The translations under genes and the position numbers were made by a program. A stretch of DNA of 64,000 bases. Source: Sphingomonas hengshuiensis (lineage in GTDB: Bacteria; Pseudomonadota; Alphaproteobacteria; Sphingomonadales; Sphingomonadaceae). The stretch spans positions 3,286,001 through 3,350,000 of the forward strand of contig NZ_CP010836.1 of NCBI RefSeq assembly GCF_000935025.1. The letters run 5' to 3'. This document shows, piece by piece, positions 44,581 to 64,000 of this stretch. Below the pieces are notes generated by a model. The model saw only the letters and a list, made by a program, of their open reading frames with translations. It did not search any database and was not told where the DNA came from. Position 1 is the stretch's first letter; each line of letters starts with the position of its first letter.

Positions 44581-45489
44581 TCAGCCCTGAGCCAGTTCGA
44601 GCAGCTCGATCAATTCGCCCGCCGGCCCGCGCACCGTCGCGCTGCGCCGCCCCGCATACAGCGCGCCGTCGCGGGCACGGGGTTCCGCGATCCACTCCAA
44701 CGCCAGCGCGTCCAGCGAGTCCACCGCGATCGTCACCAGCGCATTGCCGGGCGGCAGTGCGCCCGCCGGGCCGGGTCGCGCGATCGCTCCCTCCGGATAG
44801 CCGTCAATCTCGACCACCGGCATCCGCCCCTTCTGCATCACCGTGATCGACGTCAGATGATCGGCGGGCAGATCGAAAGCGCGGTTGATCATCGAATAGG
44901 GCAGGACATGCGTATCCCCCGCCTCCAGCCGCAACGCGCGCGCATACCAATCGACCGCCGCCGCGCGATCGGGCACCGCCAGGATCGCGATGAACAGGAA
45001 ATCGATCAGCGATTCCGCACGCGGCAGGTCGCAATTGGGCATGTCCTGCGCGACTTCGTTCAGGTACAAAACCTCGCGCCCGCGCCCCGCGACTTGCATC
45101 GGCACGAAAAAAGGCATTCCAGGCAATGCTTTAGGTGGTCCGATCACCTCGAACCCGCTCCCCTCCAGACGCGCGGGCCATCCGAACACGTCCTGCACCG
45201 TCAACTCGAACGCCGACCATCCGAAACTGCGCATCGGCAAGAAACTCGGCGGGAGCGGCGCCTCCACCAGCCGGAACACGCACGGCGCCCCGCTTTGCGG
45301 CTGGAGCGCGATCATCCGGGCACCGGCACTGTCCGGGCACCCCCAGCTTGCAGCCAGTTCGGCGGACACCGTTCCGCGCTCGACCACCGCCAGCCCCAGC
45401 CGCCCGGCATAATCACCCTCCGCCGCGTCGAGATCGGGGACGGTGGTCAGTCCGCCGACGATCCGGCCATGGTTGGCGGGGGCGCTCAT
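44581..45489 (-). CDS. Two-domain VOC (glyoxalase/dioxygenase-fold) protein
   Basis: 302 residues with two vicinal-oxygen-chelate units, GGLTTVPDLDAAEGDYAGRL in the first and LFIAILAVPDRAAAVDWYAR in the second. Metal ligands are not obvious, so catalysis is uncertain. It is the last gene of the 14-gene catabolic operon. A VOC protein also accompanies the itaconate genes of Pseudomonas aeruginosa, where its role is auxiliary. Its ATG overlaps the enoyl-CoA hydratase stop. Confidence 0.82.
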   Translation of the reverse strand: MSAPANHGRIVGGLTTVPDLDAAEGDYAGRLGLAVVERGTVSAELAASWGCPDSAGARMIALQPQSGAPCVFRLVEAPLPPSFLPMRSFGWSAFELTVQDVFGWPARLEGSGFEVIGPPKALPGMPFFVPMQVAGRGREVLYLNEVAQDMPNCDLPRAESLIDFLFIAILAVPDRAAAVDWYARALRLEAGDTHVLPYSMINRAFDLPADHLTSITVMQKGRMPVVEIDGYPEGAIARPGPAGALPPGNALVTIAVDSLDALALEWIAEPRARDGALYAGRRSATVRGPAGELIELLELAQG

Positions 45490-46250
45490 CCGAACACCGG
45501 CGTGCGGCGGTTCAGGAAAGCATCGACGCCCTCGGCGAAGTCGGGGCCTTCGAATGCGGCGTTGAACGCGGCAATCGTGGCCGAATCATCGTCGCTCTGG
45601 CCACGCGCGATGTGGGCGATGATCGCCTTGATCGCCGTGGTGCTGTGCGGCGACGCCTCGGCAATCGTCGCCGCCAGCGCCATCGCCGCCGCCTCGGCAT
45701 CGTCGGCGCGACTATCGGCCAGCCCGATGCGATAGGCCTCGTCGGCATCGATCAGCCCGCCGGTAAACAGCATCCGCTTGGCATGGGCCGGGCCGATCAG
45801 GTCGACCAGCAGCTTGGTATCGTGAAGCGGATAGACCAGCCCCAGCTTGGCGGGCGTAATCCCAAACCGCGCCGCCGGTCCCGCGACGCGCAGGTCGCAC
45901 GCAATCGCCAGCCCGCATCCGCCGCCGATACAGTCCCCGGCCACGGCGGCGATCGTCGGGCGCGGAAAGCCCGCCAGCGCGACTTGCGCGGCGCGGATCG
46001 CCTGCTGATTGCGCACCCGCCATTCGGGATCGCGCGCACCCGTTGCGAACTCGCCAATGTCGGCGCCCGCGCTGAACGCGCCCTCGTTGGCGGCGCCCAG
46101 CACCAGCACCCGGACGCCGCGATCCGCATCCGCCTCGGCCAGCAGCGGGGGCAGCGCCTCCCACATCGCCTGGGTCATCGCGTTGCGCTTCGCCGGGCGG
46201 TCGATCGACAGCCGGGCGATCGCACCCTCGCGCTCCAGCCGCAGCGTCAT
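45486..46250 (-). CDS. Enoyl-CoA hydratase/isomerase
   Basis: 254 residues from ATG at 46250. It has the crotonase fold with ANEGAFSAGADIGEF (oxyanion hole) and AAVAGDCIGGGCGLAIACD. Near the catalytic site, ARFGITPAKLGLVYP carries no standard Glu, so the reaction may be isomerisation or a decarboxylation rather than simple hydration. It acts on a CoA ester made by the CoA-transferases or ligase of the operon. ATGA overlap with the upstream gene. Confidence 0.87.
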   Translation of the reverse strand: MTLRLEREGAIARLSIDRPAKRNAMTQAMWEALPPLLAEADADRGVRVLVLGAANEGAFSAGADIGEFATGARDPEWRVRNQQAIRAAQVALAGFPRPTIAAVAGDCIGGGCGLAIACDLRVAGPAARFGITPAKLGLVYPLHDTKLLVDLIGPAHAKRMLFTGGLIDADEAYRIGLADSRADDAEAAAMALAATIAEASPHSTTAIKAIIAHIARGQSDDDSATIAAFNAAFEGPDFAEGVDAFLNRRTPVFG

Positions 46251-47113
46251 GCCGGTTCCACCCGCGCGAAATGCTCGGCAATCTCGCGCCGCGTCGCGAT
46301 CCAGACCGCCGAATGCGACCGCACATGGCGCAGGAATGCCTCGAACGCCCAGATCCGCCCGGCCCGCCCGATGATGCGCAGGTGCAGCCCCAGCGACATC
46401 ATCTTCGGATTCCCGCCCTCCCCCTCGCGGTACAGCTGGTCGAAGCATGCCTTGGCATAATCGAGCCACTGCTGCGGCGTCATCGCCGGGTCGGTCCACA
46501 TCTTCATGTCGTTGGTGTCGATCTGATAGGGCACGATCACGATCGGCTTGCCCGGCACGGTCTCGCGATCCCAGAAGGGAATATCGCCCGAATAATCGTC
46601 CATGTGATAGGTAAAGCCCTCCTCGATCAGCAGCCGGCGGGTATTGTCGGTGTGGAGGTATCGGCTCAGCCAGCCATAGGGCCGCACGCCGACGCTCCGC
46701 TCGATCGAGGCGACGGCCTTGCGGATGAAGTCGCGCTCCTGCTCCTCGTCCATCTTGAACTGGTGGATCCAGCGCCAGCCATGGCTGACCGGTTCATGCC
46801 CCAGATCGGCGATGGCGCGCGCGATCTCGGGATGGTTTTCCAGGCTCATCGCCGCGACCGTCCAGCTCGCCCGCACGCCATAGTCGCGCAGCAGTCGCAC
46901 GATACGCGGCGCGCCCGCCTTGATCCCGTAGAGATAGTTGGACTCGTTGCCGTAATTGCGGATCGCCGCCTTCAGGTGGATGCCCAGCTCGTCCACCGGC
47001 TCGGGCCCCCGGTCGCCGCGCGCCACGGTCGTCTCCGACCCTTCTTCGACATTGACGACGATCGACAGCGCCATCTTGGCGCGGCCCGGCCAGTCGATCC
47101 GTTCCTCGCGCAT
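46247..47113 (-). CDS. Polysaccharide-deacetylase-fold hydrolase (PuuE/cyclic-imidase-like)
   Basis: 288 residues. The NodB-fold features are ALSIVVNVEEGSE, GNESNYLYGIKAG and the metal-binding EPVSHGWRWIHQF (H111). The 'VSHGWRW' motif and length place it with PuuE allantoinases and bacterial cyclic imide hydrolases rather than chitin deacetylases, and there is no signal peptide. The predicted action is hydrolytic opening of a cyclic amide or imide in the cytoplasm. The amidase two genes away (48228) could then cleave the half-amide. It overlaps its neighbours by 1 and 4 bases. Confidence 0.82.
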   Translation of the reverse strand: MREERIDWPGRAKMALSIVVNVEEGSETTVARGDRGPEPVDELGIHLKAAIRNYGNESNYLYGIKAGAPRIVRLLRDYGVRASWTVAAMSLENHPEIARAIADLGHEPVSHGWRWIHQFKMDEEQERDFIRKAVASIERSVGVRPYGWLSRYLHTDNTRRLLIEEGFTYHMDDYSGDIPFWDRETVPGKPIVIVPYQIDTNDMKMWTDPAMTPQQWLDYAKACFDQLYREGEGGNPKMMSLGLHLRIIGRAGRIWAFEAFLRHVRSHSAVWIATRREIAEHFARVEPA

Positions 47114-47910
47114 CAGTGCATCTCCTCGCCGCCGGACACGTTGATCGCCTCGCCGGTGACATAGACCGCGTCGTCGGACGCCAGCCACGCACAGGCCCCG
47201 GCGGTGTCGCTCGCCAGCCCGGGCCGCCCCAGCGGGTTCCGGCGCTTCATATTCTCGACATAGGCATCGACCGTCGCGAACCCGAGCAGCTTGGAGAAAT
47301 AGGCATTCTGCTCGGCGCCCAGCCCGGTGGTGACATGGTTGGGGCAGATCGCGTTGACCGTGATCCCATGCGCGCCCAGCTCGATCGCGCTGGCGCGGGT
47401 CAGGCCGATCATGCCGTGCTTCGAACTGACATAGGCGGGCAGATGCGGAAAGGCCGATTTCGCCGCCTGGCTGGCGATGTTGACGATCCGCCCGCCCTGC
47501 CCACGCGCAATCATCGCCCGCGCCGCCGCCTGGGTACAATAGAACGCGCCCGACAGGTTGACTGCCAGCGCCCGGTCCCAATCGGCGGGGGCGACGTCGA
47601 GCAAAGGCTGCATCAGGAAGCCGATGCCCGCATTGTTCACGAACACGTCGACGCCGCCGAACGTCTCGACCGTCGCATCGACCAGCGCCGCGCATTCCTC
47701 CGCACGGCTGACATCGCACGCAATCGTCGCGACCTTGGCGCCGCGCCCCCGCAGTTCGTCCGCGACGCCCTCCACCTCGGGCGTGATCGCGCGGTCAGAC
47801 ACGACGCAATTCGCGCCCTCGTCGGCGAAGCGCTGCAGGATCGCCTGCCCCAGCCCCTTCTCGCGCCCCGATCCGGTGACGACGATCGTCTTGCCCGCAA
47901 AGCGGCCCAT
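47113..47910 (-). CDS. SDR-family oxidoreductase
   Basis: 265 residues. It has a Rossmann fold with VTGSGREKGLGQAI (slightly expanded glycine motif), CDVSRAEE, NNAG, and YVSSKHG as the catalytic Tyr/Lys. It resembles 3-oxoacyl-ACP reductase or 3-hydroxyacyl-CoA dehydrogenase types. It overlaps the HapK-like gene (TAATG) and the hydrolase gene (TGATG). Confidence 0.86.
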   Translation of the reverse strand: MGRFAGKTIVVTGSGREKGLGQAILQRFADEGANCVVSDRAITPEVEGVADELRGRGAKVATIACDVSRAEECAALVDATVETFGGVDVFVNNAGIGFLMQPLLDVAPADWDRALAVNLSGAFYCTQAAARAMIARGQGGRIVNIASQAAKSAFPHLPAYVSSKHGMIGLTRASAIELGAHGITVNAICPNHVTTGLGAEQNAYFSKLLGFATVDAYVENMKRRNPLGRPGLASDTAGACAWLASDDAVYVTGEAINVSGGEEMH

Positions 47911-48215: not shown

Positions 48216-48227
48216 CTCGGTCCTCCT

Positions 48228-49535
48228 TCAAAGCAGCATGTCGGGCGGGAAATAGCCCTGGAGCGCGGTGTCGAGCCGGCGTGCCAGCGCGATCAGCCCC
48301 CGCTCGCTCCCCGGCGCGCCGATCAGTTGCACCGCCACCGGCATCCCGTCGCGATCCTGCCCGGCGGGCAGCGTCAGCGCAGGCAGCCCGGCGATGTTGG
48401 CCAGCGCGGTGAACCCCGCCTGCGTCACCGGCGGGCGCGGGGTGTGGGCAAAGGCGACCTGCGGCGCAGTCGGCGTCAGCAGCACGCCGTCGCTGCCGAT
48501 CGCCGCGCGCAGCGTCGCGGCGGTGCGCGCCAGCACCGCCTGCGCCGCCTCCGCCTCGGCCTGAGTCCGCGCGGCGGCATAGCCGAGCAGGAAGCGCAGC
48601 TCCTTGGAGAATCCCTCGGGCGACAGGCCCGCCAGATGCCCGCCCAGTTCGCGCGCCACCGTGACGAACCCCGCCACCCCGACCGCCGCCGCATCGTCGG
48701 CAAGCCGCACCGCCGCGCACGGCATCGGCGCCAGCGCGCGCAGCGCCGCCATCAGCGCCGCATCGATCGCAGGCTCGCACGCCAGCCCGTAAGCGGGCTC
48801 CAGCGTCAGCAGTCGCACCGGCGCCGAAGCGCGTGCATCGACGCCGAGCACCGCAGACACCGCCGCCAGATCGTCGAGCGACCGCGCCAGCGGCCCGATC
48901 GCGTCGAGCGCACGGCTTGCGGGCACCAGCCCCGCGTCCGAAATCACCCCCGCCCCCGGCTTCAACGTGTACAGCCCGCAATAGGCGGCGGGAATCCGCA
49001 CCGATCCCATGGTGTCGGTGCCCAGTGAGACGGTGCATAGCCCGGCCGCAACCGCCGCTGCGCTGCCCCCCGACGACCCACCCGGCGTCCGCGCGGGATC
49101 GTGCGGATTGGCGACGCGCCCGAAAAAGGGATTGTCAGAGGTCGCGCCCAGTGCCGCCTCGTGCATGTTGAGCGTCCCCAGCACGATCGCACCCGCCCCG
49201 CGCAGTGCCGCCACCGCAGTGGCGTCGTCAGGCGCGATCACCCCGCGCCGCGCCCCCATTCCCGCATTCCATTCCAGCCCGGCGACGGCGATATTGGCCT
49301 TCACCGCCACCGGCACGCCCTCCAGCGCGCGCGGCGTGCCGCCCTCGAACCGCGCCTGGCTGACCGCCGCCGCACGCAGCGCGCCCGCCGCATCGACCTG
49401 GATAAAGCTGTGCAGCACGGGGTCGAGCGCCGCGATCCGGTCCAGATGCTGCATCACCACTTCGGCCACGCCGACGGCGCCGGCGCGATAGGCGTCGGTC
49501 AGCCCGGCGATGCTGCTGCGGTGCCACGCACTCAC
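48228..49535 (-). CDS. Amidase-signature hydrolase
   Basis: 435 residues. The Ser-cisSer-Lys triad is visible: K79 in VAVKANIAV, S154 in GGSSGGS and S178 in GTDTMGSVRIP. The spacing of 75 and 24 residues equals that of characterised amidase-signature enzymes. No signal peptide, so cytoplasmic. It would release ammonia from a carboxamide such as a half-amide of a dicarboxylate. Its start overlaps the CoA ligase stop (ATGA). Confidence 0.92.
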   Translation of the reverse strand: MSAWHRSSIAGLTDAYRAGAVGVAEVVMQHLDRIAALDPVLHSFIQVDAAGALRAAAVSQARFEGGTPRALEGVPVAVKANIAVAGLEWNAGMGARRGVIAPDDATAVAALRGAGAIVLGTLNMHEAALGATSDNPFFGRVANPHDPARTPGGSSGGSAAAVAAGLCTVSLGTDTMGSVRIPAAYCGLYTLKPGAGVISDAGLVPASRALDAIGPLARSLDDLAAVSAVLGVDARASAPVRLLTLEPAYGLACEPAIDAALMAALRALAPMPCAAVRLADDAAAVGVAGFVTVARELGGHLAGLSPEGFSKELRFLLGYAAARTQAEAEAAQAVLARTAATLRAAIGSDGVLLTPTAPQVAFAHTPRPPVTQAGFTALANIAGLPALTLPAGQDRDGMPVAVQLIGAPGSERGLIALARRLDTALQGYFPPDMLL

Positions 49536-50905
49536 TTGCCGCGCTCGTCGATCAGCCGGATCGGCTTTTGCCGCACATCGACTTGCGTCGCCGCCGCAGT
49601 GCCTCCCGGCCCGACCAACTCGACCGCAACTTCGACGCCCAGCGACCGGCGGAGCAACTCGCCAAGCTGGGCGATGTCGCTGCCGCCGCGGCTTTCGATC
49701 ACCACGCGCATCGCATCGCGCCCGCCGGCATCGCGCGCGACATAGCAGACGAACTCGCCGGTCAGGTCGCTGCGATTCTCGATCACCCCGCCGATCGCGT
49801 GCGGGAATACGTTGATCCCGCGCAGCTTGACCATGTTGTCGCTGCGCCCGCGAAACCCGGTGATCCGCTTGAACGCCATGCCGGTCTGGTTGGCGCCGGT
49901 GATTTCGTTGGTGATGTCATGCGTGTTGAAGCGGATGCACGGCGCGATGTCGTCCTTGAACAGGCAGGTGACGACCATGTCGCCGGTCTCCCCCGCCGCG
50001 ACCGGCGCGCCGCTCTCGACGTCGAGCAGTTCCAGATACTGCGCGTCTTCCCAGACATACAGGCCGTCGCGCTCCGGCCCTTCGCCCGCGATCGCGCCGG
50101 TATCGCCGACGCCATACCAGTCGAACGCCTTCGCCCCGCCCCACGCCGCCTCGACGCCGCTGCGGTCGTCCATCCCCAGATGGCCGCAGATCATCCGCAC
50201 GTTCATCCGCTCGCGCAGCCCCTCGGCCTCGGCGACTTCGGCGAGCTTGCGGATATAGTCGATGAAGCCGACCAGCACGCTGACGCCGAAATCGGCCATC
50301 AGCCCGACCTGCGCCACCGATCGCGTCTCGATCCCCGTCCCCGCCGACAGGAACAGCGCGTTGGTGAAATGCGTGACGGCCTCGCGGACATAATGCCCGC
50401 CATTGATCATGCCATGGCCATAGACCGACTGGACGACGTCGCTATGCGCCATCCCCTGCCAGCGATACATGCGCCCGACGAGCAGGTTGGTGACTTCGCG
50501 CCCCTTCGGCCCGAACAGCAAAGGCTGGGGCCGCCCGGTGGTGCCCGACGTGGTGTGGAAGATCACCGGCGAGCGGCCCGCATCCTGCCCCAGCCCCGCG
50601 AAATCGCCGAGCGGCGGATGCGCGGCGACCGACGCCATCACGTCGCTCTTGTCATAGACGGGCAGCCTGGTGATGTCCTCCAGCGTGCGGATGTCGCCCG
50701 GCTCGATCCCCTGCGCGCCCCATAGCCGCTGGTAGAACGGTATCTCCCACCCGCGCCGCATCAGCGTGCGGAAGCGCGCATCCTGGAGCGCGTGGAGTTC
50801 GTCGCGGCTCATGCCGGTGTAGCGGCGAACAAAGGCCTCGCCGACCGGGTAATCGGCCAGCATCTGGCGCGCGTCGAACGCTTCGAAATAGCTGGGGAAC
50901 GTCAT
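49532..50905 (-). CDS. PaaK-type aryl/acyl-CoA ligase
   Basis: 457 residues. ANL-superfamily motifs are HTTSGTTGRPQPLLFG (phosphate loop), WYGVGDTGAIAGE and GFRGRSDNMVKLRGINVFP (hinge). It is the phenylacetate-CoA-ligase subtype. It would adenylate and thioesterify an aromatic or other carboxylate. Overlaps the first MmgE/PrpD gene (ATGA). Confidence 0.9.
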   Translation of the reverse strand: MTFPSYFEAFDARQMLADYPVGEAFVRRYTGMSRDELHALQDARFRTLMRRGWEIPFYQRLWGAQGIEPGDIRTLEDITRLPVYDKSDVMASVAAHPPLGDFAGLGQDAGRSPVIFHTTSGTTGRPQPLLFGPKGREVTNLLVGRMYRWQGMAHSDVVQSVYGHGMINGGHYVREAVTHFTNALFLSAGTGIETRSVAQVGLMADFGVSVLVGFIDYIRKLAEVAEAEGLRERMNVRMICGHLGMDDRSGVEAAWGGAKAFDWYGVGDTGAIAGEGPERDGLYVWEDAQYLELLDVESGAPVAAGETGDMVVTCLFKDDIAPCIRFNTHDITNEITGANQTGMAFKRITGFRGRSDNMVKLRGINVFPHAIGGVIENRSDLTGEFVCYVARDAGGRDAMRVVIESRGGSDIAQLGELLRRSLGVEVAVELVGPGGTAAATQVDVRQKPIRLIDERGK

Positions 50906-52209
50906 CGGGGCTCCGGGCGGGTCAGGTAAGAAAGCGAGTCGGCGAACAGCCGGGGGTCGGCATCGTCGGGCGCGAGCTGTGCCGCGAGCGTGCGCTTGGC
51001 GGCGGTCTGCGCCGCGTCCATCGGCGCGTCGGGATGACCCAGCGTGTTGGGGATCGCGCGCTCGATCGCGCTGCCATCGGCGCGGCGCACGATCAGCCGT
51101 TGCGGCGACAGCGCGTTGGGATCGGGATTGGTGTCGGTCGTCAGCGTGAAGCGCGCGGCCAGCGCGACGATCGCCGGATCGGCAAAGGTCTCCGCCGTAA
51201 AGCGGCGCGGATCGATCACCCCGTCCGCCAGCATCAGCGCAGTCAGGAACGGCAGGCACAGCCGCGCATAGCCGGGCGTCATGTCCGGCTGCATCGGGCG
51301 CCCGACCAGCCGGGCGATCAGCGGCGGCGCGACCAGCTCGACTGCCGCGACCCTCTCCGCCCGCACCTCGCCCGCCCGCAACAGCCCGTCCAGCGCGGCA
51401 AGCAGCCCATGGCTGGCCCGGCCCGAGGGATAGGGTTTGATCGAGCATTCGGCGATCCGCCACACGCTGCCGATCGTGTCGGTATAGGTCGCCAGCGCAC
51501 CCGTATCGATCAGCCGGAAATAGCCGAACGGCCCCTCCAGCGCGTCGTGCGGTCCGCTCAGCCCGTGGCGGACCATGTCGACCGCCGTCACCGCCGCCCG
51601 CGCCGCGCCGGCGATTTGCAGCGGCAGCGCGATCGATCCCTCGACATGCGCCTGCATCGTCCCCGCGCATTGCGAATAGGCCAACCCCAGCACGTCGTCG
51701 AACCGCTCGACGCGCTCGATCCGCGCCACCGCCAGCGCTGCGCCGATGCACCCGGCGGTGGCGGGGCGGAAGAAGCGCAACGGGCTTGTCGCCGCGATGC
51801 CCAGCCCCGACGCCACGTCGATCCCCACCGCCAGCGCCGCCAGCGCCTCGTCGGGATCGCACTCGCCGCGCCGATCGATCGCCGCCATCAGCGCCGCCAC
51901 GACGGTCGCAAAGCCATGCACCACCGCGCGCTCGTGCAGCGCGTCCCATTCGAGGCAATGAATGCGAAAGCCATTGACGAATGCCGCCGAGGCCGCCGGC
52001 ATCCGCGCGGCATCGCCCAGCAGCCGGGCATCCTCGCCCGCTCCCCAGCCAGCCGCGAGATTGCGCACCCCCTCGGCCCCCGGCGCCTGCGCGCCCGCCG
52101 CCCCCGTCGCCAGCGTATCGGCCAGCATCGCCAGCGCTGCCCCGCGCACCGCATCGGGCAGCCGATGCTCCGCGCGGGCAAAGTCCAGCAGCCGCCGGGT
52201 CGCGCTCAC
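50902..52209 (-). CDS. MmgE/PrpD family protein 1
   Basis: 435 residues from GTG at 52209. It has the all-helical N-terminal domain with GFRIHCLEWDALHERAVVHG (the family's active-site stretch) and the ferredoxin-like C-terminal lid. MmgE/PrpD enzymes dehydrate 2-methylcitrate or decarboxylate cis-aconitate, or act on related tricarboxylates and dicarboxylates. Overlaps both neighbours. Distinct enough from the next gene to be a subfunctionalised pair or a heteromer. Confidence 0.87.
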   Translation of the reverse strand: MSATRRLLDFARAEHRLPDAVRGAALAMLADTLATGAAGAQAPGAEGVRNLAAGWGAGEDARLLGDAARMPAASAAFVNGFRIHCLEWDALHERAVVHGFATVVAALMAAIDRRGECDPDEALAALAVGIDVASGLGIAATSPLRFFRPATAGCIGAALAVARIERVERFDDVLGLAYSQCAGTMQAHVEGSIALPLQIAGAARAAVTAVDMVRHGLSGPHDALEGPFGYFRLIDTGALATYTDTIGSVWRIAECSIKPYPSGRASHGLLAALDGLLRAGEVRAERVAAVELVAPPLIARLVGRPMQPDMTPGYARLCLPFLTALMLADGVIDPRRFTAETFADPAIVALAARFTLTTDTNPDPNALSPQRLIVRRADGSAIERAIPNTLGHPDAPMDAAQTAAKRTLAAQLAPDDADPRLFADSLSYLTRPEPR

Positions 52210-55712: not shown

Positions 55713-56878
55713 CAGGCGGGGTTCCGCTTCAGCCACTGCCGCGCGATGATCATGCGCTGCATCTCGTTGGTGCCTTCGCCGATGCACATCAGCAGCGCAT
55801 CGCGATAATAGCGCTCGATTTCATATTCCTTGGAGTAGGAATACCCCCCGAAAATGCGCATCGCCTCTTCGGAATTGCGCACCGCGGCCTCGGACGCGAA
55901 GTATTTCGCCATCCCCGCCTCCATGTCGCACCGCTCGCCCCGGTCATAGGCCTGCGCCGCCTGCTCGACGAGCAGCCGCGCCGCCTCTGCCCGCGTCACC
56001 ATCTCGCCCAGCTTGAGCTGGATCGCCTGGTGCTGCGCGATCGGCTTGCCCATCGTCTCGCGGACCTGCGCATATTCGGTCGCCAGCCGCAGCGATCCCA
56101 GCGCCAGCCCGACGCCGCGCGCCGCGACGTTGATCCGGCCCAGTTCCAGCCCGCCGGTCGCCTGGAAGAAACCCTCGCCCTCGACACCGCCGATCAGGTT
56201 GGCGGCGGGCACGCGGTAATCGATGAAGTTCAGCTCGGCGCTGTCGATCGCCTTATAGCCCAGCTTTTCGAACTTCTTGCCGACTTCGAACCCCGGCCCC
56301 TTGGGCACGATGAAGAAGCTCATGCCCTTGTAGCGCGGCTCGGCCTTGGGATCGGTCTTCACGAGCATCGCGAAGCAGCTTCCCTCGACGCCGTTGGTGA
56401 TCCACGTCTTGGTGCCGTTGATCACATAGTCGTCGCCATCGCGCACCGCGACGCTGCGGATGCTTTGCAGGTCGGTGCCCGCATTGGGCTCGGTCAGCGC
56501 CAGGCCGCCACGGATTTCGCCGCTCGCGAACTTGGGCAGCCATTCCTGCTTCTGCGCCTCGGTGCCGAAGCGCTCGACCGCCGCCGCCATGATCAGATGC
56601 GAATTGACGATGCCGGTGATCGCCATCCAATAGGACGAGATGCGCGCGATGATCCGGGCATAGGTCGTCGCGGGCAGCCCCAGCCCGCCATAGTCCTGGC
56701 CGATCGTCGCGCCGAACAGCCCCATATCCTTCATCTGCTCGACCAAGGCGGCGGGCCAGATGTCGTTGTGGTCGTGGTACATCACCACCGGGCGAACCTC
56801 GCGGTCGATCCAGCGGTCGATCGATTCCATCAGTGCGGCTTCGTCGGCGGGGTCGATATGGCGTTGTGCTTGGGTCAT
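55712..56878 (-). CDS. Acyl-CoA dehydrogenase
   Basis: 388 residues from ATG at 56878. Conserved ACAD segments are GLALTEPNAGTDLQS (FAD/substrate), WITNG, and the C-terminal IFGGYSYSKEYEIERYYRD. The catalytic Glu is in GEGTNEMQ. It probably oxidises a short branched or dicarboxyl-CoA with ETF as acceptor. Such a gene is also part of the Pseudomonas itaconate set. Separated by 10 bases from the upstream MaoC gene. Confidence 0.93.
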   Translation of the reverse strand: MTQAQRHIDPADEAALMESIDRWIDREVRPVVMYHDHNDIWPAALVEQMKDMGLFGATIGQDYGGLGLPATTYARIIARISSYWMAITGIVNSHLIMAAAVERFGTEAQKQEWLPKFASGEIRGGLALTEPNAGTDLQSIRSVAVRDGDDYVINGTKTWITNGVEGSCFAMLVKTDPKAEPRYKGMSFFIVPKGPGFEVGKKFEKLGYKAIDSAELNFIDYRVPAANLIGGVEGEGFFQATGGLELGRINVAARGVGLALGSLRLATEYAQVRETMGKPIAQHQAIQLKLGEMVTRAEAARLLVEQAAQAYDRGERCDMEAGMAKYFASEAAVRNSEEAMRIFGGYSYSKEYEIERYYRDALLMCIGEGTNEMQRMIIARQWLKRNPA

Positions 56879-56888
56879 GTCGGCGTCC

Positions 56889-57398
56889 TCAGTCGTCGAC
56901 GGGGCCACAGCCCCGCTTCCAGATCAGCATGGTGCGGCTGAAGGTGCAGACGATGTCGCCATGCTGGTTCCTGCCCGTGGTGCGCACCGTCACGATCCCC
57001 TGTTCGGGGCGCGACTTGGACTCGCGCTTCTCCAGCACTTCGCTTTCGGCATAGAGCGTGTCGCCGGCGAACACGGGGTGGGTCAGCCGGATATTGTCCC
57101 AGCCCAGATTGGCCACCGCCTTCTGGCTGACGTCCGAAACGCTCATCCCCACCATCAGCGCGACGGTGAAGGGGGAGCAGACCAAAGGCTTGCCGAACTC
57201 GGTCTTCTTCGCGAATTCATAGTCGAAATGCGCGGGATGCGTGTTCATCGTCAGCAGCGTGAACCACACATTGTCGGTGTCGGTGATCGTCCGGCCCGGA
57301 CGGTGCTCATAGATATGGCCGACGACGAAATCCTCGAAAGACCGGCCAAAGGTCTCGCGAAAACGCCCCGGACTGACTTCGATGACCCCGTCACGCAT
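56889..57398 (-). CDS. MaoC-family CoA hydratase (mesaconyl-/itaconyl-CoA hydratase-like)
   Basis: 169 residues from ATG at 57398; a TTG two codons earlier (57404) is possible. It has a hot-dog fold with GRTITDTDNVWFTLLTMN, HPAHFDYEFAKKTEFGKPLV, and LTHPVFAGDTLYAESEVL. This pattern is close to the mesaconyl-CoA hydratase and itaconyl-CoA hydratase types, adding water to a branched unsaturated CoA ester. Immediately follows the CitE-type lyase gene, a pairing known from C5-dicarboxylate pathways. Confidence 0.88.
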   Translation of the reverse strand: MRDGVIEVSPGRFRETFGRSFEDFVVGHIYEHRPGRTITDTDNVWFTLLTMNTHPAHFDYEFAKKTEFGKPLVCSPFTVALMVGMSVSDVSQKAVANLGWDNIRLTHPVFAGDTLYAESEVLEKRESKSRPEQGIVTVRTTGRNQHGDIVCTFSRTMLIWKRGCGPVDD

Positions 57399-57400
57399 GG

Positions 57401-58225
57401 TCAATGTTCCGCATTGTTAAGTATCCTCCGAAAGCGGCGCACGATCGGCGCCTCCAGCATCTGACCGTTGAAGCGGATCGCGCGCCCGCCGCCCGCGTCG
57501 AACGCCGCCAGCGCGGCGCGCGCCTCGGCGATCTCGTCGGCGGTGGGGCGCAGGATGGCGTGGATCGGGGCGATCTGCGCGGGGTGGATCGCCGCCTTCG
57601 CGGCAAAGCCCAGCGCCTTTGCGGCGCGCGTCTCCGCCGCCAGCCCCTCGACATTGTCCAGCGTGATAAAGGGTACGTCGATCGCGGGCACGCCGCCTTC
57701 AGCACAGGCAAGCACGAATGCACTGCGCGCATGGACCAGCGGCCCCCATGCCAGCGCGACGCCCAGCTCGGCGGACAGATCGCCGCCGCCGAACATCATC
57801 GCCGCGACGCCGGGCGCCGCCGCGATCGCATGCGCCTCGCGCAGCCCGCGCGCGGTCTCGATCAACGGCACGATGGGCGGGGTCCGATCCTCCAGGATCG
57901 CGCGCAGCATCGCGATTTCCGCCGCACTCTCGACCTTCGGCACCAGCAACAGCCGCGGCATCGTTTCCGCCTCGGCCAGCGCCAGCAGGTCCGCGAGCCC
58001 AGCGCGCGTGGTCAGCCCGTTGATGCGCAGCGCAAAGTCGGCATCCATCGCGCCGATCACCGCCGCGCGCGCCGCGGCCTTGCCCTCGGCGGGCACCGAA
58101 TCCTCAAGGTCGATGCACACCGCATCGGCCCCGCTCGCCAATGCCTTGGCGAACCGGTCGGGCCGTGTGCCGGGCACGAATAATAGTGTCGTCAGGCGAT
58201 CAACGGTTTGCACGGAAACCCCCAA
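57401..58225 (-). CDS. CitE/HpcH-family acyl-CoA lyase (citramalyl-/methylmalyl-CoA lyase-like)
   Basis: 274 residues; start TTG 58225 or GTG 58213, both weakly supported. TIM-barrel motifs are LLFVPGTRPDRFAKAL, CIDLEDSVP (metal-binding Glu/Asp), LLVPKVES and MMFGGGDLSAELG. The family cleaves citramalyl-CoA to pyruvate plus acetyl-CoA, or methylmalyl-CoA to glyoxylate plus propionyl-CoA. First gene of the 14-gene operon. Confidence 0.9.
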   Translation of the reverse strand: MGVSVQTVDRLTTLLFVPGTRPDRFAKALASGADAVCIDLEDSVPAEGKAAARAAVIGAMDADFALRINGLTTRAGLADLLALAEAETMPRLLLVPKVESAAEIAMLRAILEDRTPPIVPLIETARGLREAHAIAAAPGVAAMMFGGGDLSAELGVALAWGPLVHARSAFVLACAEGGVPAIDVPFITLDNVEGLAAETRAAKALGFAAKAAIHPAQIAPIHAILRPTADEIAEARAALAAFDAGGGRAIRFNGQMLEAPIVRRFRRILNNAEH

Positions 58226-58475
58226 GGAAGGCGCCCCAATTCCGCCGTGCTCCCTTCGAAGTCACCGCGACCTGCCGCCGCTATCCGCCAGCCGGTCATT
58301 TCCGCCCGATGATCGCTCGCCGCGCATTTCCGGGCGGGCGGGCGCCCCGCCGAACGTGGCGCGGTCCATGACGGGCCGCGCTTCACCGCCTGCCGATCAA
58401 ACCGCACACGCGCCCTGCCTGCGCGGGCACCGCCGCATATCGCTGGACAGTGACAAGAGGCGCGAAAGGATTACG

Positions 58476-59708
58476 ATGGGCGGGCCGCGTTCGGAATTCA
58501 GGTTGGGCACCAAGCCGCTGGTCGCGGCGGTGCTCGGCGTTGCCTGCGGAGCGTCGCCGCTGCCGTTCAACGTGCTGCCGCTGGTGATGGGGCCGATCCA
58601 CCGCGAGTTCGGATGGGATTTCGCAGTCATCAGCTCGGGCGTCACCATCTTCGGCGTGATCGCCGCGCTGCTCGCCCCGCTCTATGGCGGCGCGGCCGAC
58701 CGTTTCGGGGTGCGCCCGGTCGCGCTGCTGTCGCTGCTCGCCTTCGCGCTGGCATTCGGCGCGTTCTACTTCGTGCCCGCATCGACGACCGGCTGGTTCG
58801 CCTTCTGGGCGGTGCTCGGGCTGATCGGCATCGGCTCGACTCCGGTGACGTGGAGCCGCGCGATCAGCCTGTGGTTCAGCCGCAATCGCGGGCTGGCGCT
58901 CAGCATCATGCTGATGGGCACCAGCCTCGCCGCGCTGGTGGTGCCGCAAATCGCACAGGCGGCGATCGGCGCAGGCGGCTGGCGGCTCGCCTTCCCCGCG
59001 GTCGCGCTGCTGCCGCTGCTGGTCGCGCTGCCCGTCGGCCTGCTCTGGTTTCGCGAGCCGCGCGCGCATGAATGCCCGTCCGAGCTTACCGACGCACAGG
59101 GCAATGTCGCCGGGCTGACGCTGGGGCAGGCGATGCGCGGCTATCGCTTCTGGGTGTTGCTCGCCTCGATCCTGCTGATCGCCTTCGCCTATGGTGGCGC
59201 GCATATCCACATGGCGCAGATCGTGGCGCTGCACGGCTTTCCCCCCGCCGCCGCCGCCAGCGTGATGGGGGTCGTCGCGCTCGGCATCCTGTCGGGCCGG
59301 CTGCTGATCGGCTTCCTGTTCGACCGGCTCTGGGCACCCGCCGTCGCCTTCCCCGCGCTGTTGCTCCCCGCGCTCGCCTGCTGGCTGCTGATGGGTAGTT
59401 CGACCGGGCTCGGCTGGGTGACGGTCGGCGGGTTCCTGCTCGGCTTTGCAGCGGGGACGGAGGCGGACGTGATCGCCTATCTCGCCGCGCGCTATTTCGG
59501 GATGGCGCATTATGGCCGGGTTTATGGCGCACTCTACATGCCGTTCGGCGTCGGCGCCGCGATCTCGCCGATTCTCTATGGCATCGTCCGCGACCGCACC
59601 GGCAGCTACGATGCGATGCTGACGGTAGCCGCGGCGCTGTTCGTCATTGGCGGCGCATTGCTGCTCACGCTGGGCCGCTATCCCAGCGCGCCCGCAAAAG
59701 GAGCCTGA
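58476..59708 (+). CDS. MFS transporter (monocarboxylate/oxalate-formate-antiporter-like)
   Basis: 410 residues and 12 helices; AAAGGA precedes the ATG at 58476. LYGGAADRFGVRPVALLSLL between helices 2 and 3, and GLSIM-like LALSIMLMGTSLAALVVPQI, suggest the organic-acid-transporting MFS branch. It is divergent from the 14-gene operon, so substrate uptake for the pathway is the natural role. Starts the plus-strand set. Confidence 0.85.
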   Translation: MGGPRSEFRLGTKPLVAAVLGVACGASPLPFNVLPLVMGPIHREFGWDFAVISSGVTIFGVIAALLAPLYGGAADRFGVRPVALLSLLAFALAFGAFYFVPASTTGWFAFWAVLGLIGIGSTPVTWSRAISLWFSRNRGLALSIMLMGTSLAALVVPQIAQAAIGAGGWRLAFPAVALLPLLVALPVGLLWFREPRAHECPSELTDAQGNVAGLTLGQAMRGYRFWVLLASILLIAFAYGGAHIHMAQIVALHGFPPAAAASVMGVVALGILSGRLLIGFLFDRLWAPAVAFPALLLPALACWLLMGSSTGLGWVTVGGFLLGFAAGTEADVIAYLAARYFGMAHYGRVYGALYMPFGVGAAISPILYGIVRDRTGSYDAMLTVAAALFVIGGALLLTLGRYPSAPAKGA

Positions 59709-59712: not shown

Positions 59713-60912
59713 ATGAAACAGGACGTCCCGCCCCCCTATACCGCCGTCACCCAGCACCCGATATTCCCGGTCCCCTCGCATGACGAGGCGGCGCGCTACA
59801 ACTTCCTGGCGAACTTCAACAAATACCTGTCGGGCACCGTCGCTGCGGGCAACAAGCTCGCCTACGAAACCCGCGTCCTGCCCGCGTTCCGCGCCGAGCA
59901 TGGCCGCGAGCCCGCCGACCGGTTCGAAGTGCGCCACGCGATGAACCGCGATCCGTGGCACCGCCTCTGGTCCGCCTGTCGCCGCAATTCGATGGAGATG
60001 CGCCAGCAGAACGGGCGCGCGATCGTGCTGCGCCAGATCGACACGCTCGATGCAAAGGCGCGCCAGTTTAATGAGGGCCGCGACACGCTGGAGCTGGACC
60101 CGTCGGTCGCGGTGCCCCGCTATCAGGGTGCGGTCGACATCCATTGTATGCCCGGCAGCTATCATGGCGAGGAGCGCCCCGGCGACGTCTCCGCCGGCGC
60201 CAATTACGACAGCGGACTGTTCGCCACCACCGGCGGCCAGCTCGGCGCGCTGTCCGATGGCGGCGGGCAGGCGCTGGTGGAATGGATCAAGCGCGAACGC
60301 CCCGGCTGGACGCCGCGCCGCATCCTCGATCTGGGCGCCACGATCGGGCACAATATCGTGCCGCTCGCGCTAGCCTTTCCCGATGCCGAGGTCATCGCGA
60401 TCGACACCGCCGCGCCGGTGCTGCGCTATGGCCATGCCCGCGCGCAGGCGCTGGGCGCGCACACCCTCCGCTTCGTCCAGATGGATGCCGAGGATATGGC
60501 GCGCTTCCCCGAAGGGCATTTCGACTGGGTGCAGACGACGATGTACCTGCACGAACTGTCGGGAAAGGCGCTGCCCCGCATCGTCGCGGAGGGCGTGCGC
60601 GTGCTCGCCCCCGGCGGGCTGATGTTCCATCTGGAGCAGCCGCAATATACGCCCAAAATGCCGCTGTTCGAACAATTCCTGCGCGACTGGGATGCGTTCA
60701 ACAACAACGAGCCCTTCTGGTCGGCGATGCACGCGCTCGACCTGAAACAGATCATGGCCGATGCCGGGCTGCCCCGCGAATGCCAGTTCGTGACCGGGGT
60801 GCGCGCCGTCGCCGACCGATCGATCTTCCCCGATGCACCCGCGCCCGAGGAAGAGGATTATGGCCGCACCGCGGTCTGGAACGCCTATGGCGCATGGAAG
60901 CCCGCAGCATGA
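59713..60912 (+). CDS. SAM-dependent methyltransferase with unusual N-terminal domain
   Basis: 399 residues from ATG at 59713. The C-terminal half is a class I methyltransferase: RRILDLGATIGHNIVPLALA (motif I), EVIAIDTAAP (acidic motif II), then QMDAEDMARFPEGHFDWV. The N-terminal 200 residues (NFLANFNKYLSGTVAAGNKL, then RDPWHRLWSACRRNSMEMRQ) match no family I know. A methylation step inside a dicarboxylate catabolic locus is unexpected. Stop overlaps the next gene (ATGA). Confidence 0.83.
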   Translation: MKQDVPPPYTAVTQHPIFPVPSHDEAARYNFLANFNKYLSGTVAAGNKLAYETRVLPAFRAEHGREPADRFEVRHAMNRDPWHRLWSACRRNSMEMRQQNGRAIVLRQIDTLDAKARQFNEGRDTLELDPSVAVPRYQGAVDIHCMPGSYHGEERPGDVSAGANYDSGLFATTGGQLGALSDGGGQALVEWIKRERPGWTPRRILDLGATIGHNIVPLALAFPDAEVIAIDTAAPVLRYGHARAQALGAHTLRFVQMDAEDMARFPEGHFDWVQTTMYLHELSGKALPRIVAEGVRVLAPGGLMFHLEQPQYTPKMPLFEQFLRDWDAFNNNEPFWSAMHALDLKQIMADAGLPRECQFVTGVRAVADRSIFPDAPAPEEEDYGRTAVWNAYGAWKPAA

Positions 60913-61268
60913 CCGACGACATCGACTGGATCGCCCGCGCCGGTGCCCGCGCCAAGGGGAAGCGCCCCGATTTCCTGGGCGATCCGACGTCCGAACGGAT
61001 GCTGTCGATCCTGCTCGCAGTGGCGGGCGAAGTATCGGTGCTGCGCGAGCGGCTGGACACGGTCGAGCGGCTGCTCGACGCGAAGGGCACGATCGACCGC
61101 GCCGACATCGACGCCTATCGCCCCGATCCCGACGCCGCGTACCAGCGCAGCGTGCTGACCAAGGACTATATCGCGCGGATCATGCGCGGGGTGCAGCAGG
61201 ACATGGAGTCGATGCGGATCGACGAAAAGCCGCTCGCCGAGGTCAGCGCGGAGCTGCGCGAGGGCTGA
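60909..61268 (+). CDS. Small coiled-coil-containing protein
   Basis: 119 residues. A helical stretch with heptad pattern (LLAVAGEVSVLRERLDTVER) is preceded by a basic segment and followed by an acidic tail. No family recognised. It is coupled to the methyltransferase by an ATGA overlap, so it may be a subunit or adaptor of it. Confidence 0.7.
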   Translation: MTDDIDWIARAGARAKGKRPDFLGDPTSERMLSILLAVAGEVSVLRERLDTVERLLDAKGTIDRADIDAYRPDPDAAYQRSVLTKDYIARIMRGVQQDMESMRIDEKPLAEVSAELREG

Positions 61269-61417: not shown

Positions 61418-61423
61418 GGAGAG
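61418..61423 (+). promoter_or_regulatory. Shine-Dalgarno deciding a CTG start for the LeuC-like gene
   Basis: GGAGAG lies 5 bases before CTG at 61429, which begins the LeuC-family N-terminus SRPRTLFDKIWDAH. No ATG, GTG or TTG is available in frame there; the next ATG is 58 codons later and would remove conserved residues. Confidence 0.55.
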
Positions 61424-61428
61424 TTACG

Positions 61429-62811
61429 CTGTCCCGCCCCCGCACCCTGTTCGACAAGATCTGGGACGCGCACGTCATCGCCCCGCTCGACGCGGGATCG
61501 GCGCTGGTCGCGATCGATCGCGTCTTCCTGCACGAACGCACCGGCGCGGCGGCGCTCAACAGCCTTGCCGCCGCCGGACGCCCGATCCTCGATCCGGCGC
61601 GAGTGTTCTGCGTCATGGACCATATCGTCGACACCCGCCCGGGCCGCGACGACCGCACGCTGATGCCCGGCGGGCAGGCGTTCATCACGGAGACGCGGGC
61701 GGCAGCACGCGCGGCGGGGATCACGCTGTTCGACGTGACCGACGCGGATCAGGGCATCACCCACGTCATCTCGCCCGAACTGGGCGTCGTCCTGCCCGGC
61801 TGCACTTTGGTCGCGCCCGACAGCCACACCTGTACCCAGGGCGCATTCGGGGCGCTGGCCTGGGGGATCGGCACGTCGGAGGCCGAACATGCGATGGCCA
61901 CCGGCACGCTGCGCATCGCCCGCCCGCGCACGATGCGCGTCGCCTTCACCGGCGCGCTTTCGCCGGGCGTGACGCCGAAGGACATGATCCTCGCGCTGAT
62001 CGCCCGCCACGGTGCGGGAAGCGGCAAGGGCCATGCGATCGAGTTTACGGGCAGCGCCGTCACCGCGCTCGACATGGAAGCGCGGATGACGCTGTGCAAC
62101 ATGGCAACCGAGTTTTCCGCCATGACGGGGATGATCGCGCCCGACGCGCGCACCTTCGACTGGCTGCGGGGCCGCCGCTACGCGCCTGCAGGGAGGGCGT
62201 TCGATGCCGCCGTGGCCGCATGGCGGACGCTGGCGAGCGATCCGGGGGCCGTGTTCGATGCCTATATCGCCATCGACGCCGCGACCATCGAGCCGATGGT
62301 GAGTTGGGGCACCTCGCCCGAGCATAGCGCCCCGATCTCGGGCACGGTGCCCGAAGCCGCGCCCGACCGCGCGCTCGCCTATATGGACCTTCGCCCCGGC
62401 CAGCCGCTGCTGGGCCTCGCCATCGACGCGGCGTTCATCGGAAGCTGCACCAACGGCCGCCTCTCCGACCTGCGCCGCGCCGCCGCGCTGTTGCAGGGCC
62501 GCCGGATCGCGCCGGGGCTGAGGGCGCTGTGCGTCCCCGGATCGAGCGCGGTCAAGCGCGCGGCAGAGGCGGAGGGGCTCGACCGCATCTTCCTCGATGC
62601 CGGGTTCGAATGGCGGGAAAGCGGCTGTTCGATGTGCTTCTATGCCGGGGGCGAGAGCTTTGCCCCCGGATCGCGCGTCATATCCTCGACCAACCGCAAT
62701 TTCGAAGGGCGGCAGGGGCCCGGCATCCGCACCCATATCGCCAGCCCCGAGACCGTGGCCGCCAGCGCGCTCGCGGGACACATCGCCGATCCGCGCGCGG
62801 TGACGCAATGA
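61429..62811 (+). CDS. Aconitase-superfamily (LeuC-like) large subunit, probable CTG start
   Basis: 460 residues, about the length of LeuC. Starting at the CTG restores RTLFDKIWDAHVIAPLDAGS. The 4Fe-4S ligands are in GSCTNGR and SGCSMC; substrate-site segments are VAPDSHTCTQGAFGALAWG and TNRNFEGRQGPG. Absence of leuA or leuB nearby and the CoA-ester context suggest it hydrates or isomerises a branched unsaturated dicarboxylate (for example citraconate to citramalate, or a dimethylmaleate) instead of isopropylmalate. Coupled to the LeuD-like gene (ATGA). Confidence 0.88.
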   Translation: MSRPRTLFDKIWDAHVIAPLDAGSALVAIDRVFLHERTGAAALNSLAAAGRPILDPARVFCVMDHIVDTRPGRDDRTLMPGGQAFITETRAAARAAGITLFDVTDADQGITHVISPELGVVLPGCTLVAPDSHTCTQGAFGALAWGIGTSEAEHAMATGTLRIARPRTMRVAFTGALSPGVTPKDMILALIARHGAGSGKGHAIEFTGSAVTALDMEARMTLCNMATEFSAMTGMIAPDARTFDWLRGRRYAPAGRAFDAAVAAWRTLASDPGAVFDAYIAIDAATIEPMVSWGTSPEHSAPISGTVPEAAPDRALAYMDLRPGQPLLGLAIDAAFIGSCTNGRLSDLRRAAALLQGRRIAPGLRALCVPGSSAVKRAAEAEGLDRIFLDAGFEWRESGCSMCFYAGGESFAPGSRVISSTNRNFEGRQGPGIRTHIASPETVAASALAGHIADPRAVTQ

Positions 62812-63428
62812 CGCCCTTCACCACGCTCACCGCTGTCGCCGCGCCGTTGCTGCGCGACAATGTCGATACCGATGCGATCATCCCTTCGCGCGAGATGAAG
62901 AGCACCGCGCGCACCGGGCTGGCCGAAGGGCTGTTCGCGGCGTGGCGCTACCGCTCGCCCGACAGCCGCGCGCCCGATCCCGGCTTCGTGCTCAACCAGC
63001 CCGATTTCGCCGCTGCGCAGATCCTGGTCGGCGGCGCCAATTTCGGGTGCGGGTCCAGCCGCGAACATGCGGTGTGGGCGCTTGCCGAATATGGCTTTCG
63101 CGCCGTGATTGCGCCGGGCTTCGCGCCGATCTTCTTCGGCAACTGCATCCGCAACGGCATCGTCCCCGTGGTGCTGTCCCCTGACGCAGTCACGCAGATC
63201 GCCGAAGCCGCCCCCGGCCCGGTGACGGTGGACCTGCGCGCGCTCCGCGTGTCGCTGGCCGACGGCACCGGCTGGGACTTCGCGCTCGAAGCCGAAGCGC
63301 GGACAATGCTGCTCGAAGGGGTGGATGCGATCGACCTGACGCTGAAGCAGCACGCCCTGATCTCCGCCTTCCACGACCGCGACCGCATGGCGCGGCCCTG
63401 GATTTATCTCGACGAGGCTGCACGATGA
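62808..63428 (+). CDS. LeuD-like small subunit
   Basis: 206 residues. The swivelling domain has LLRDNVDTDAIIPSREMK, GGANFGCGSSREHAVWAL and APIFFGNCIRNGIVP. Works with the LeuC-like protein as a heterodimer. Coupled to both neighbours by ATGA. Confidence 0.9.
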   Translation: MTPFTTLTAVAAPLLRDNVDTDAIIPSREMKSTARTGLAEGLFAAWRYRSPDSRAPDPGFVLNQPDFAAAQILVGGANFGCGSSREHAVWALAEYGFRAVIAPGFAPIFFGNCIRNGIVPVVLSPDAVTQIAEAAPGPVTVDLRALRVSLADGTGWDFALEAEARTMLLEGVDAIDLTLKQHALISAFHDRDRMARPWIYLDEAAR

Positions 63429-63496
63429 CGCGCGTACCTATCAGCAAGGTCGCCCTTGTATTCATGCTCGAAGCTATCGGGACGGGTTCGGCATGA
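63425..63496 (+). CDS. 23-codon ORF bridging LeuD-like and CaiB/BaiF 3
   Basis: The reading frame TRVPISKVALVFMLEAIGTG plus Ser-Ala begins at an ATG overlapping the leuD-like stop and ends in a TGA overlapping the next ATG. Its only role may be translational coupling across the gap, as no other ribosome binding site is evident for the CoA-transferase. Confidence 0.45.
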   Translation: MTRVPISKVALVFMLEAIGTGSA

Positions 63497-64000
63497 GCGT
63501 CCCGGCACCGCTCGCGGGCCTGAAGGTCATCGAGTTCACCCATATGGTGATGGGGCCGGCGGCGGGTGCGATCTTCGCCGCGCTGGGCGCCGAAGTCACC
63601 CGCGTCGAGCCGCTCGGCGGCGACAAGACGCGCACGCTGCTGGGGTCGGGCGCGGGCTATTTCCCGATGTACAACCGGCACAAGGGCAGCATCGCGCTCG
63701 ACCTGAAATCGCCCGAGGGCCGCGCGACCGCGCGCGCGCTGGCGGTGAAGGCCGACATATTGGTCGAGAATTTCCGCCCCGGCGCGCTCGACCGGCTGGG
63801 GTTGGGCTATGACGCGCTCGAACAGGACAATCCCCGACTGATCTATTGCTCGGCCAAGGGCTTCCTGCCCGGCCCGTACGAGAACCGGACCGCGCTGGAC
63901 GAAGTCGCGCAGATGATGGGCGGGCTCGCCTATATGACCGGCCCGCCGGGACGCCCGCTGCGCGCAGGCTCGAGCGTGATCGACGTGGCGGGGGGAATGT
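63493..64000 (+). CDS. CaiB/BaiF CoA-transferase 3, 3' part beyond the window
   Basis: 169 residues are visible from ATG at 63493. LAGLKVIEFTHMVMGPAAGA, YNRHKGSIALDLKS, and YCSAKGFLPGPYENRTALDEV are the family N-terminal features, including the catalytic Asp in DEVAQMMGG. Third type III CoA-transferase of the island, encoded with the LeuC/LeuD-like subunits, so its acid may be their product. Confidence 0.9.
   Translation, partial: MSVPAPLAGLKVIEFTHMVMGPAAGAIFAALGAEVTRVEPLGGDKTRTLLGSGAGYFPMYNRHKGSIALDLKSPEGRATARALAVKADILVENFRPGALDRLGLGYDALEQDNPRLIYCSAKGFLPGPYENRTALDEVAQMMGGLAYMTGPPGRPLRAGSSVIDVAGGM

Follow-up and report, generated by a model that had tools for sequence, protein, structure and literature searches.

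Here we describe a block of about twenty genes in Sphingomonas hengshuiensis (genome of 5.23 Mb in two contigs) that looks like an undescribed route for the use of small nitrogen-containing ring or amide compounds. It lies at the end of the window, i.e., the whole analyzed stretch of 64,000 nucleotides (positions 3,286,001 to 3,350,000 of contig NZ_CP010836.1; G000:C1:3286001-3350000), and is centered on a core of 14 minus-strand genes across 44581-58225. Many related bacteria from soil and water have inherited the block as a unit. We interpret it, at a probability of about one half, as a catabolic island for a compound with a C4-dicarboxylate backbone whose nitrogen is bound as imide, lactam or amide. 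An earlier note, written from the sequence of the stretch, knew of no described pathway with this full set of enzymes; the open-licence literature in PubMed Central (PMC) yielded no description of the gene combination.

Co-inheritance of the core genes

The earlier note had tied its proposal to the joint conservation of the imidase-like hydrolase (G03; genes are numbered as in Table 1), the amidase (G06) and the coenzyme A (CoA) enzymes, and a comparison of gene neighborhoods bears this out, with a grouping that exceeds chance. An alignment of 14 relatives of the MmgE/PrpD protein G08 was used to fetch 80 loci from named genomes, the best of 128, which were scored for the core genes by tblastn: all 14 genes are present in 57 and at least 12 in 60; order and strand are identical in 56, and locus L096 displays the same order with an extra dehydrogenase. 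Individually, G03 is found in 69, G06 in 73, G12 in 65 and G14 in 61 of the 80. Losses often coincide with contig ends: 15 of the 23 loci without the full set end within about 1 kb of one, and L072, which lacks G14, also ends at one; two of the 15, L041 and L078, also miss an internal gene. The loci include representatives of Sphingomonas, Sphingobium, Blastomonas, Novosphingobium, Erythrobacter, Sphingorhabdus, Steroidobacter and Peristeroidobacter, and cover Alpha- and Gammaproteobacteria, Steroidobacter being a gammaproteobacterium. The genes of these relatives are codon-model calls, some of whose starts and shadow frames are unreliable.

As the loci had been selected by G08, single genes were also profiled in 196 genomes from the order (the source genome included), with E-value limits chosen from earlier scores. 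G03 (E 1e-90) and the PaaK-like ligase G07 (E 1e-120) occur in the same nine genomes; G08 (E 1e-90) occurs in 17, namely these nine and eight with 45-51% relatives; and the MaoC hydratase G13 (E 1e-60) occurs in 19, at 74% identity or above only in the nine plus one. The CoA-transferase G20 (E 1e-90) is found in 38, nine at no less than 71% (71-76%) and the other 29 at 57-69%, a step of 71% versus 69% that was not preset and is not sharp. The nine genomes, nine genera of one family, enter as plain counts. With the alignments restricted to stop-free orthologues that span 85% of the gene (33-78 rows for each gene, counting the query), the share of columns conserved at 98% or more reaches 53% in G03, 52% in G12, 47% in G07 and G04, and 45% in G13, and is about 20% in G05 and G01. 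Of the 67 loci in which both G10 and G09 were found, 63 have a gene for a GntR regulator between the two on the opposite strand; the window has no GntR gene at this place, and an IclR gene lies downstream instead.

Gene calling combined with Pfam and NCBIfam profile matching recovered the enzyme families listed in the earlier note and added to them a VOC protein, an enoyl-CoA hydratase, an SDR oxidoreductase and a REDY/HapK protein (PF11639) in the same block. The description of fourteen overlapping minus-strand genes holds for their number and, with the chosen start codons, for 11 of the 13 junctions, which overlap by 1-8 bases; the other two are gapped by 10-12 bases. In the sense of transcription, the block runs from G14 (57401-58225) down to G01 (44581-45489), and six plus-strand genes come next, coding for an MFS transporter, a methyltransferase-domain protein, a 119-residue protein, LeuC, LeuD and a third CaiB/BaiF protein. 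A promoter scan of 57900-58700 gave one promoter-like site (9/12 matches; mean of shuffles 0.0), which was not used.

Table 1. Genes of the island in window coordinates, with profile or structure matches; the fetched islands are described in the text.
Gene	Product or proposed role	Position	Strand	Evidence and remarks
G01	VOC/glyoxalase-fold protein, 302 residues	44581..45489	-	PF00903 21.7 bits; final gene of conserved 14-gene block
G02	enoyl-CoA hydratase/isomerase (crotonase)	45486..46250	-	PF00378 146 bits
G03	PuuE-like hydrolase, proposed imide/lactam opener	46247..47113	-	PF01522
G04	SDR oxidoreductase	47113..47910	-	PF13561 198 bits; 47% of columns conserved
G05	REDY-like/HapK small protein, 101 residues	47910..48215	-	PF11639 53 bits; 2jdj 29 bits
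G06	amidase-signature amidase, proposed deamidation	48228..49535	-	PF01425 270 bits
G07	PaaK-like acyl-CoA ligase	49532..50905	-	TIGR02155 152 bits, under cut-off 646
G08	MmgE/PrpD paralogue a (MmgEa), altered active site	50902..52209	-	PF03972/PF19305
G09	MmgE/PrpD paralogue b (MmgEb), methylsuccinate-isomerase-like	52206..53447	-	33% identity to P. aeruginosa methylsuccinate isomerase
G10	CaiB/BaiF family III, transferase or acyl-CoA racemase	53440..54528	-	PF02515 356 bits
G11	CaiB/BaiF CoA-transferase	54525..55712	-	PF02515 370 bits
G12	acyl-CoA dehydrogenase (ACAD)	55712..56878	-	PF00441 157 bits; 35% to P. aeruginosa Mcd
G13	MaoC hydratase, RipB/mesaconyl-CoA hydratase type	56889..57404	-	NF038241 RipB/Ich 250 bits, cut-off 340; PF19315 96 bits
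G14	CitE-type acyl-CoA lyase, RipC-like	57401..58225	-	NF038242 RipC/Ccl 241.5 bits, cut-off 375; 3qll 206 bits
G15	MFS transporter	58476..59708	+	PF07690 130 bits; present in six fetched islands
G16	class I S-adenosylmethionine methyltransferase-domain protein	59713..60912	+	PF13649 58 bits; present in six fetched islands
G17	small partner of G16, 119 residues	60909..61268	+	no Pfam match; present in six fetched islands
G18	LeuC-like hydratase large subunit, start codon uncertain	61423..62811	+	PF00330 496 bits
G19	LeuD-like hydratase small subunit	62808..63428	+	PF00694 98 bits
G20	third CaiB/BaiF CoA-transferase (CoAT3)	63493..64587, ends 587 bases beyond window	+	PF02515 358 bits

The putative pathway and its alternatives

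Gene content, co-inheritance and family assignments, together with the fold of G03 and the active-site residues of the two MmgE/PrpD paralogues, are direct observations. They uphold the gene set and linkage on which the earlier note had built a route from a cyclic imide or lactam through an unsaturated branched dicarboxylate and CoA activation to C-C cleavage; every reaction and the identity of the substrate we infer. G03 reaches the gathering score of the polysaccharide deacetylase superfamily (PF01522; 44.1 versus 23.1 bits), and its closest structural relatives are not carbohydrate esterases of the CE4 type, which argues against a carbohydrate deacetylase, the alternative that the earlier note had allowed for. 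G06 displays Lys, GGSSGGS and GTDTMGSVR motifs, which we take to carry the amidase triad. The MmgE/PrpD paralogues differ in their active sites: G09 keeps six of the seven named residues, including the His102/Tyr148 pair of the MmgE/PrpD methylsuccinate isomerase, whereas in G08 (predicted structure with a mean predicted local distance difference test score, pLDDT, of 91) Tyr148 is substituted by Leu, His152 by Arg and Lys202 by Leu (Pseudomonas aeruginosa numbering). A subtype with all three residues replaced is common to the window (50902-52209), Tistrella and a second island of the same genome; judging from the sequences, such proteins probably form an uncharacterized subclass, often found beside HapK and SDR.

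We propose that the PuuE-like hydrolase G03 would open the ring and the amidase G06 would release ammonia to yield a substituted succinic acid, whose C2 epimers could be interconverted by the MmgE protein G09. The CoA-transferase G11, with G10 acting as a transferase or racemase, may then form the CoA ester, which the dehydrogenase G12 would convert to a mesaconyl/itaconyl-type ester; the MaoC hydratase G13 would add water, and the CitE-type lyase G14 would split the citramalyl-type ester into a 2-oxo acid (pyruvate in the simplest case) and an acyl-CoA. LeuCD (G18/G19) and the CoA-transferase G20 could constitute a second branch for an unsaturated (maleate/citraconate-type) analogue, and the second island, like that of a relative, has an HMG-CoA-lyase-like gene beside the LeuCD/CoA-transferase genes. 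G07, G02 and G04 might activate and oxidize a side chain, and the scheme assigns no role to G01, G05, G08, G16 and G17. The conservation of the core as a unit in many Sphingomonadales and in Steroidobacter relatives points to a substrate that is widespread in soils and waters. Moreover, the set would couple nitrogen release at its front to a back end of C5-dicarboxylate-like type and includes an MmgE protein with an altered active site; it therefore offers a direct route to new enzyme activities and to a gap in the environmental turnover of nitrogen and carbon.

Several observations weigh against this catabolic scheme. Only LeuD (TIGR00171, 189 bits, over the cut-off of 116), plus LeuC at the subfamily level (PRK12466, 669 bits, over 531; TIGR00170, 524 bits, under 560), reach a curated cut-off for the proposed activity, TIGR00170 and TIGR00171 being the equivalog models of the 3-isopropylmalate dehydratase LeuCD; G13 lacks a blastp match (E 1e-5) to P. 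aeruginosa Ich (itaconyl-CoA hydratase); and G09 has Asn in place of His88 and is missing in genome G203 and in L081, in the latter as the sole missing gene. G06 is the least conserved gene (13% of columns; 33 rows) and is absent from L041 and L058 although its place is covered. The predicted model of G03 is moderately confident (mean pLDDT 76; residues 25-59 below 50), and this protein is nearer to PuuE allantoinase than to the imidase-like HpPgdA (222 versus 71 bits; the latter score is to 3qbu, a proxy standing in for a characterized imidase sequence). HapK and a G01-type VOC protein were not found on the Tistrella plasmids. Finally, L058 holds eight of the 14 genes (G03, G06, G07 and G11-G13 are missing), and L073, L083, L087, L094 and L098 carry part of the MmgE/PaaK/amidase/HapK/SDR half, the rest having been sought at the locus only; these five have room on both sides, except for L094 with 0.7 kb on the right.

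The proximity of G03 to PuuE, an opener of hydantoin, also favors a different nitrogen bond: G03 might open a hydantoin, dihydropyrimidine, lactam or oxidized N-heteroaromatic ring (indole/pyridine type), with HapK, SDR and PaaK acting on the ring before its hydrolysis and the dicarboxylate half forming the tail of an aromatic pathway. Consistent with this, HapK accompanies MmgEa in all five partial loci and SDR does so in four, with the CoA genes absent nearby, and flavin adenine dinucleotide (FAD) oxidases, an FAD monooxygenase and TonB receptors are encoded near the core. However, no ring-cleaving oxygenase was recognized among the 14 core genes (the VOC protein G01 could in principle be one), and the Tistrella PuuE gene is kept with those for MmgE, ACAD and CoA-transferases rather than with HapK/SDR; we consider this alternative doubtful. 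The five partial loci and the odd subset in L058 might instead reflect two unrelated pathways lying side by side, one for itaconate/methylsuccinate (G09-G14) and one for amides (G03-G08), as might the wider spread of MaoC relatives (19 of the 196 genomes) than of G03 (nine). Such a chance juxtaposition appears unlikely given the intact gene order in the 56 loci across two proteobacterial classes, the identical genome sets of G03 and G07, and the restriction of MaoC proteins with at least 74% identity to those nine genomes plus one. As a separate observation, the short half adjoins ribosomal-protein genes and a murJ-like gene in L083, L087, L094 and L098, and several of the five partial loci sit beside ribosomal-protein and ATP-synthase genes.

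Surroundings of the core and plasmid relatives

The island extends beyond the core. G20 lies within about 45 kb of it in seven of the nine genomes (the window's own included); in one of the other two it is some 400 kb off, and in the other the genes are scattered. Six of the linked islands were fetched because G20 lies on the same contig; they therefore illustrate the linkage but do not measure how often it occurs. G09 is present in five of them and every other gene of G01-G20 in all six. A reading of LeuCD as an unrelated neighbor, based on the absence of G18-G20 from all 80 loci with 10-kb flanks and on the same module standing alone in the second island, was rejected: these flanks hardly extend to the position of G18-G20, and the search of the order and the fetched islands, all six of which carry G18/G19, overturn it. 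All six also have an isochorismatase-family protein (68-74% to protein D05), two further PuuE-like proteins (about 30% to D02), an aldehyde dehydrogenase (32-36%), an FAD oxidase (42-47%) and a TonB receptor (25-27%). Island G238, which was read in detail, additionally codes for a nitrilase-family protein, and its HMG-CoA-lyase-like gene adjoins LeuD/CoAT3. Past the window, the source genome codes for isochorismatases, a PuuE-like protein, an Amdase-family protein, IclR, an isocitrate-lyase-family protein, a second LeuCD and HyuAB. HyuAB recurs in two of the six fetched islands, and no counterparts of the genes for the Amdase, IclR, isocitrate lyase and second LeuCD turned up in any of them.

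The FAD oxidase D16 has no specific relative among solved structures. At L003:11436-13524, a flavin amine oxidase with a twin-arginine-like leader is encoded next to a small cytochrome c, with an FAD oxidase further on, an arrangement that presumably resembles periplasmic nicotine oxidation. A methyltransferase-domain protein followed by a small family-less protein is encoded at three places in the parts of this genome that were read (including window 59713-61268 and L003:1239-3061) and also in the six fetched islands.

It is conceivable that the block is instead a biosynthetic or signaling cluster for the production or modification of an alkylsuccinate/maleimide natural product, as hinted by the methyltransferase-domain proteins and by HapK, which presumably was named from a pigment cluster. 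We hold this to be very improbable: the scanned proteins gave no match to a carrier-protein or synthase family, TonB receptors and MFS transporters are near, and the enzymes are of the beta-oxidation and lyase kind.

The second island of the same genome (about 5.046-5.063 Mb; G000:C1:5045829-5063212; L122, L123) codes for the methyltransferase, small protein, HapK, SDR, MmgE, GntR, LeuCD, CoA-transferase, an HMG-CoA-lyase-like protein, two PuuE-like proteins and LeuCD2. It matches 20 of the 31 proteins of a cluster on plasmid pJE1 (Sphingomonas sp. JE1; L129) at 60-90% identity, and 24 of the 31 have matches (28-87%) in the window or the following 55 kb. A similar cluster is found on pTomTYG65b (L130). 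One of the two plasmids is typed as conjugative and one as mobilizable; therefore, the pathway family appears transferable. Tistrella mobilis pTM2 holds counterparts in three places: PuuE (64%)-TRAP-MmgEa (45%)-ACAD (70%)-CoA-transferase (57%)-CoA-transferase (52%); CitE (44%)-MaoC (75%), adjoined by an amidase (28%) and an Amdase-family gene; and MmgEb (48%)-PaaK (60%)-amidase (45%). The open-licence PMC literature on tetrapyrrole/maleimide degradation, pJE1 and TomTYG65 yielded nothing on the cluster, and the excerpted text of a paper on tomatine degradation that names TomTYG65 holds no matches for the genes of the cluster (PMC10653915).

The many different C-N hydrolases around the core suggest a substrate with more than one nitrogen, which leaves alive the earlier note's speculation on methylated maleimides from tetrapyrrole breakdown. 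Under this notion, the pigment would be imported and cleaved by FAD enzymes and TonB receptors; several hydrolases (PuuE-type, isochorismatase-type, nitrilase-type and amidase) might handle maleimides and succinimides with different substituents; and the resulting alkylsuccinates and alkylmaleates could be burnt in two lower branches (acyl-CoA dehydrogenase/MaoC/CitE and LeuCD/CoA-transferase/HMG-CoA-lyase-like). That the island and its plasmid-borne paralogue constitute the first recognized bacterial machinery fully mineralizing multi-ring pyrrolic compounds (bilins and other tetrapyrrole products) is a speculation that we deem quite unlikely.

Comparison with known systems

G03 shares the fold of, and about 40% sequence identity with, the PuuE allantoinase (TIGR03212), but differs in lying under the family cut-off (252 versus 424.6 bits); the allantoinase proper is encoded elsewhere in the genome (C1:769063, 482 bits). 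The G03/G06 couple parallels HxnM/HxnN of Aspergillus nidulans nicotinate catabolism, in which a polysaccharide-deacetylase-fold hydrolase is followed by an amidase, with ring opening before nitrogen release; there, however, the product is 2-hydroxyglutarate and CoA steps are lacking, and HpPgdA, the structure named as closest to HxnM, is a more distant relative of G03 than PuuE (PMC9304392).

A benzylsuccinate-type pathway, with two CaiB subunits and an ACAD, was rejected, as the BbsEF structures score below other family members: G11 gives 112 bits to 9fn0_B versus 227 to 10uh, and G10 gives 96 bits to 9fn0_A versus 195 to 4ed9 (and 163 to alpha-methylacyl-CoA racemases). An analogy with indoleacetate (iac) genes for HapK, SDR and amidase stays a tentative lead that PMC7225977 does not support: in its excerpted text no function is deducible for IacB, and neither "IacH" nor "amidase" is mentioned.

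The PEP (phosphoenolpyruvate)-mutase/isocitrate-lyase-family protein past the window has methylisocitrate lyase as its best model (248 bits; cut-off 354). The dimethylmaleate hydratase/dimethylmalate lyase system of nicotinate fermentation presumably uses LeuCD-like hydratases and a protein of this family, as here; it is likened by description, and differs in that the six fetched islands yielded no isocitrate-lyase-like gene. The Yersinia-type RipABC itaconate degradation provides the best NCBIfam models for G13 and G14 (RipB and RipC), both under cut-off, and no match for a RipA-type transferase was seen.

A close parallel is the gene cluster for itaconate/methylsuccinate degradation in P. 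aeruginosa and Cupriavidus necator (PMC12290011; region L126), in which one operon codes for an MmgE isomerase, an acyl-CoA dehydrogenase, a CaiB CoA-transferase, a CitE lyase, a VOC protein and a MaoC-type hydratase. G09-G12 and G14 are 33-38% identical to its proteins: G10 (37%) and G11 (33%) to Ict, with equivalog cut-offs not reached (G11 scores 219 bits against the succinyl-CoA:mesaconate CoA-transferase model, cut-off 700), and G14 (38%) to Ccl, the (S)-citramalyl-CoA lyase. Unlike the island, the stretch of that cluster that was fetched has a single MmgE and a single CoA-transferase and is without imidase, amidase, PaaK ligase, HapK, SDR and LeuCD; its VOC protein has 126 residues versus 302 here, and a TRAP transporter takes the place of MFS/TonB. 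Because the hydratase is not of the P. aeruginosa type, Ich being without a match to G13, we do not file the island under that cluster. Nevertheless, by analogy, the island resembles an itaconate/methylsuccinate route to which a putative nitrogen-releasing front end has been joined.

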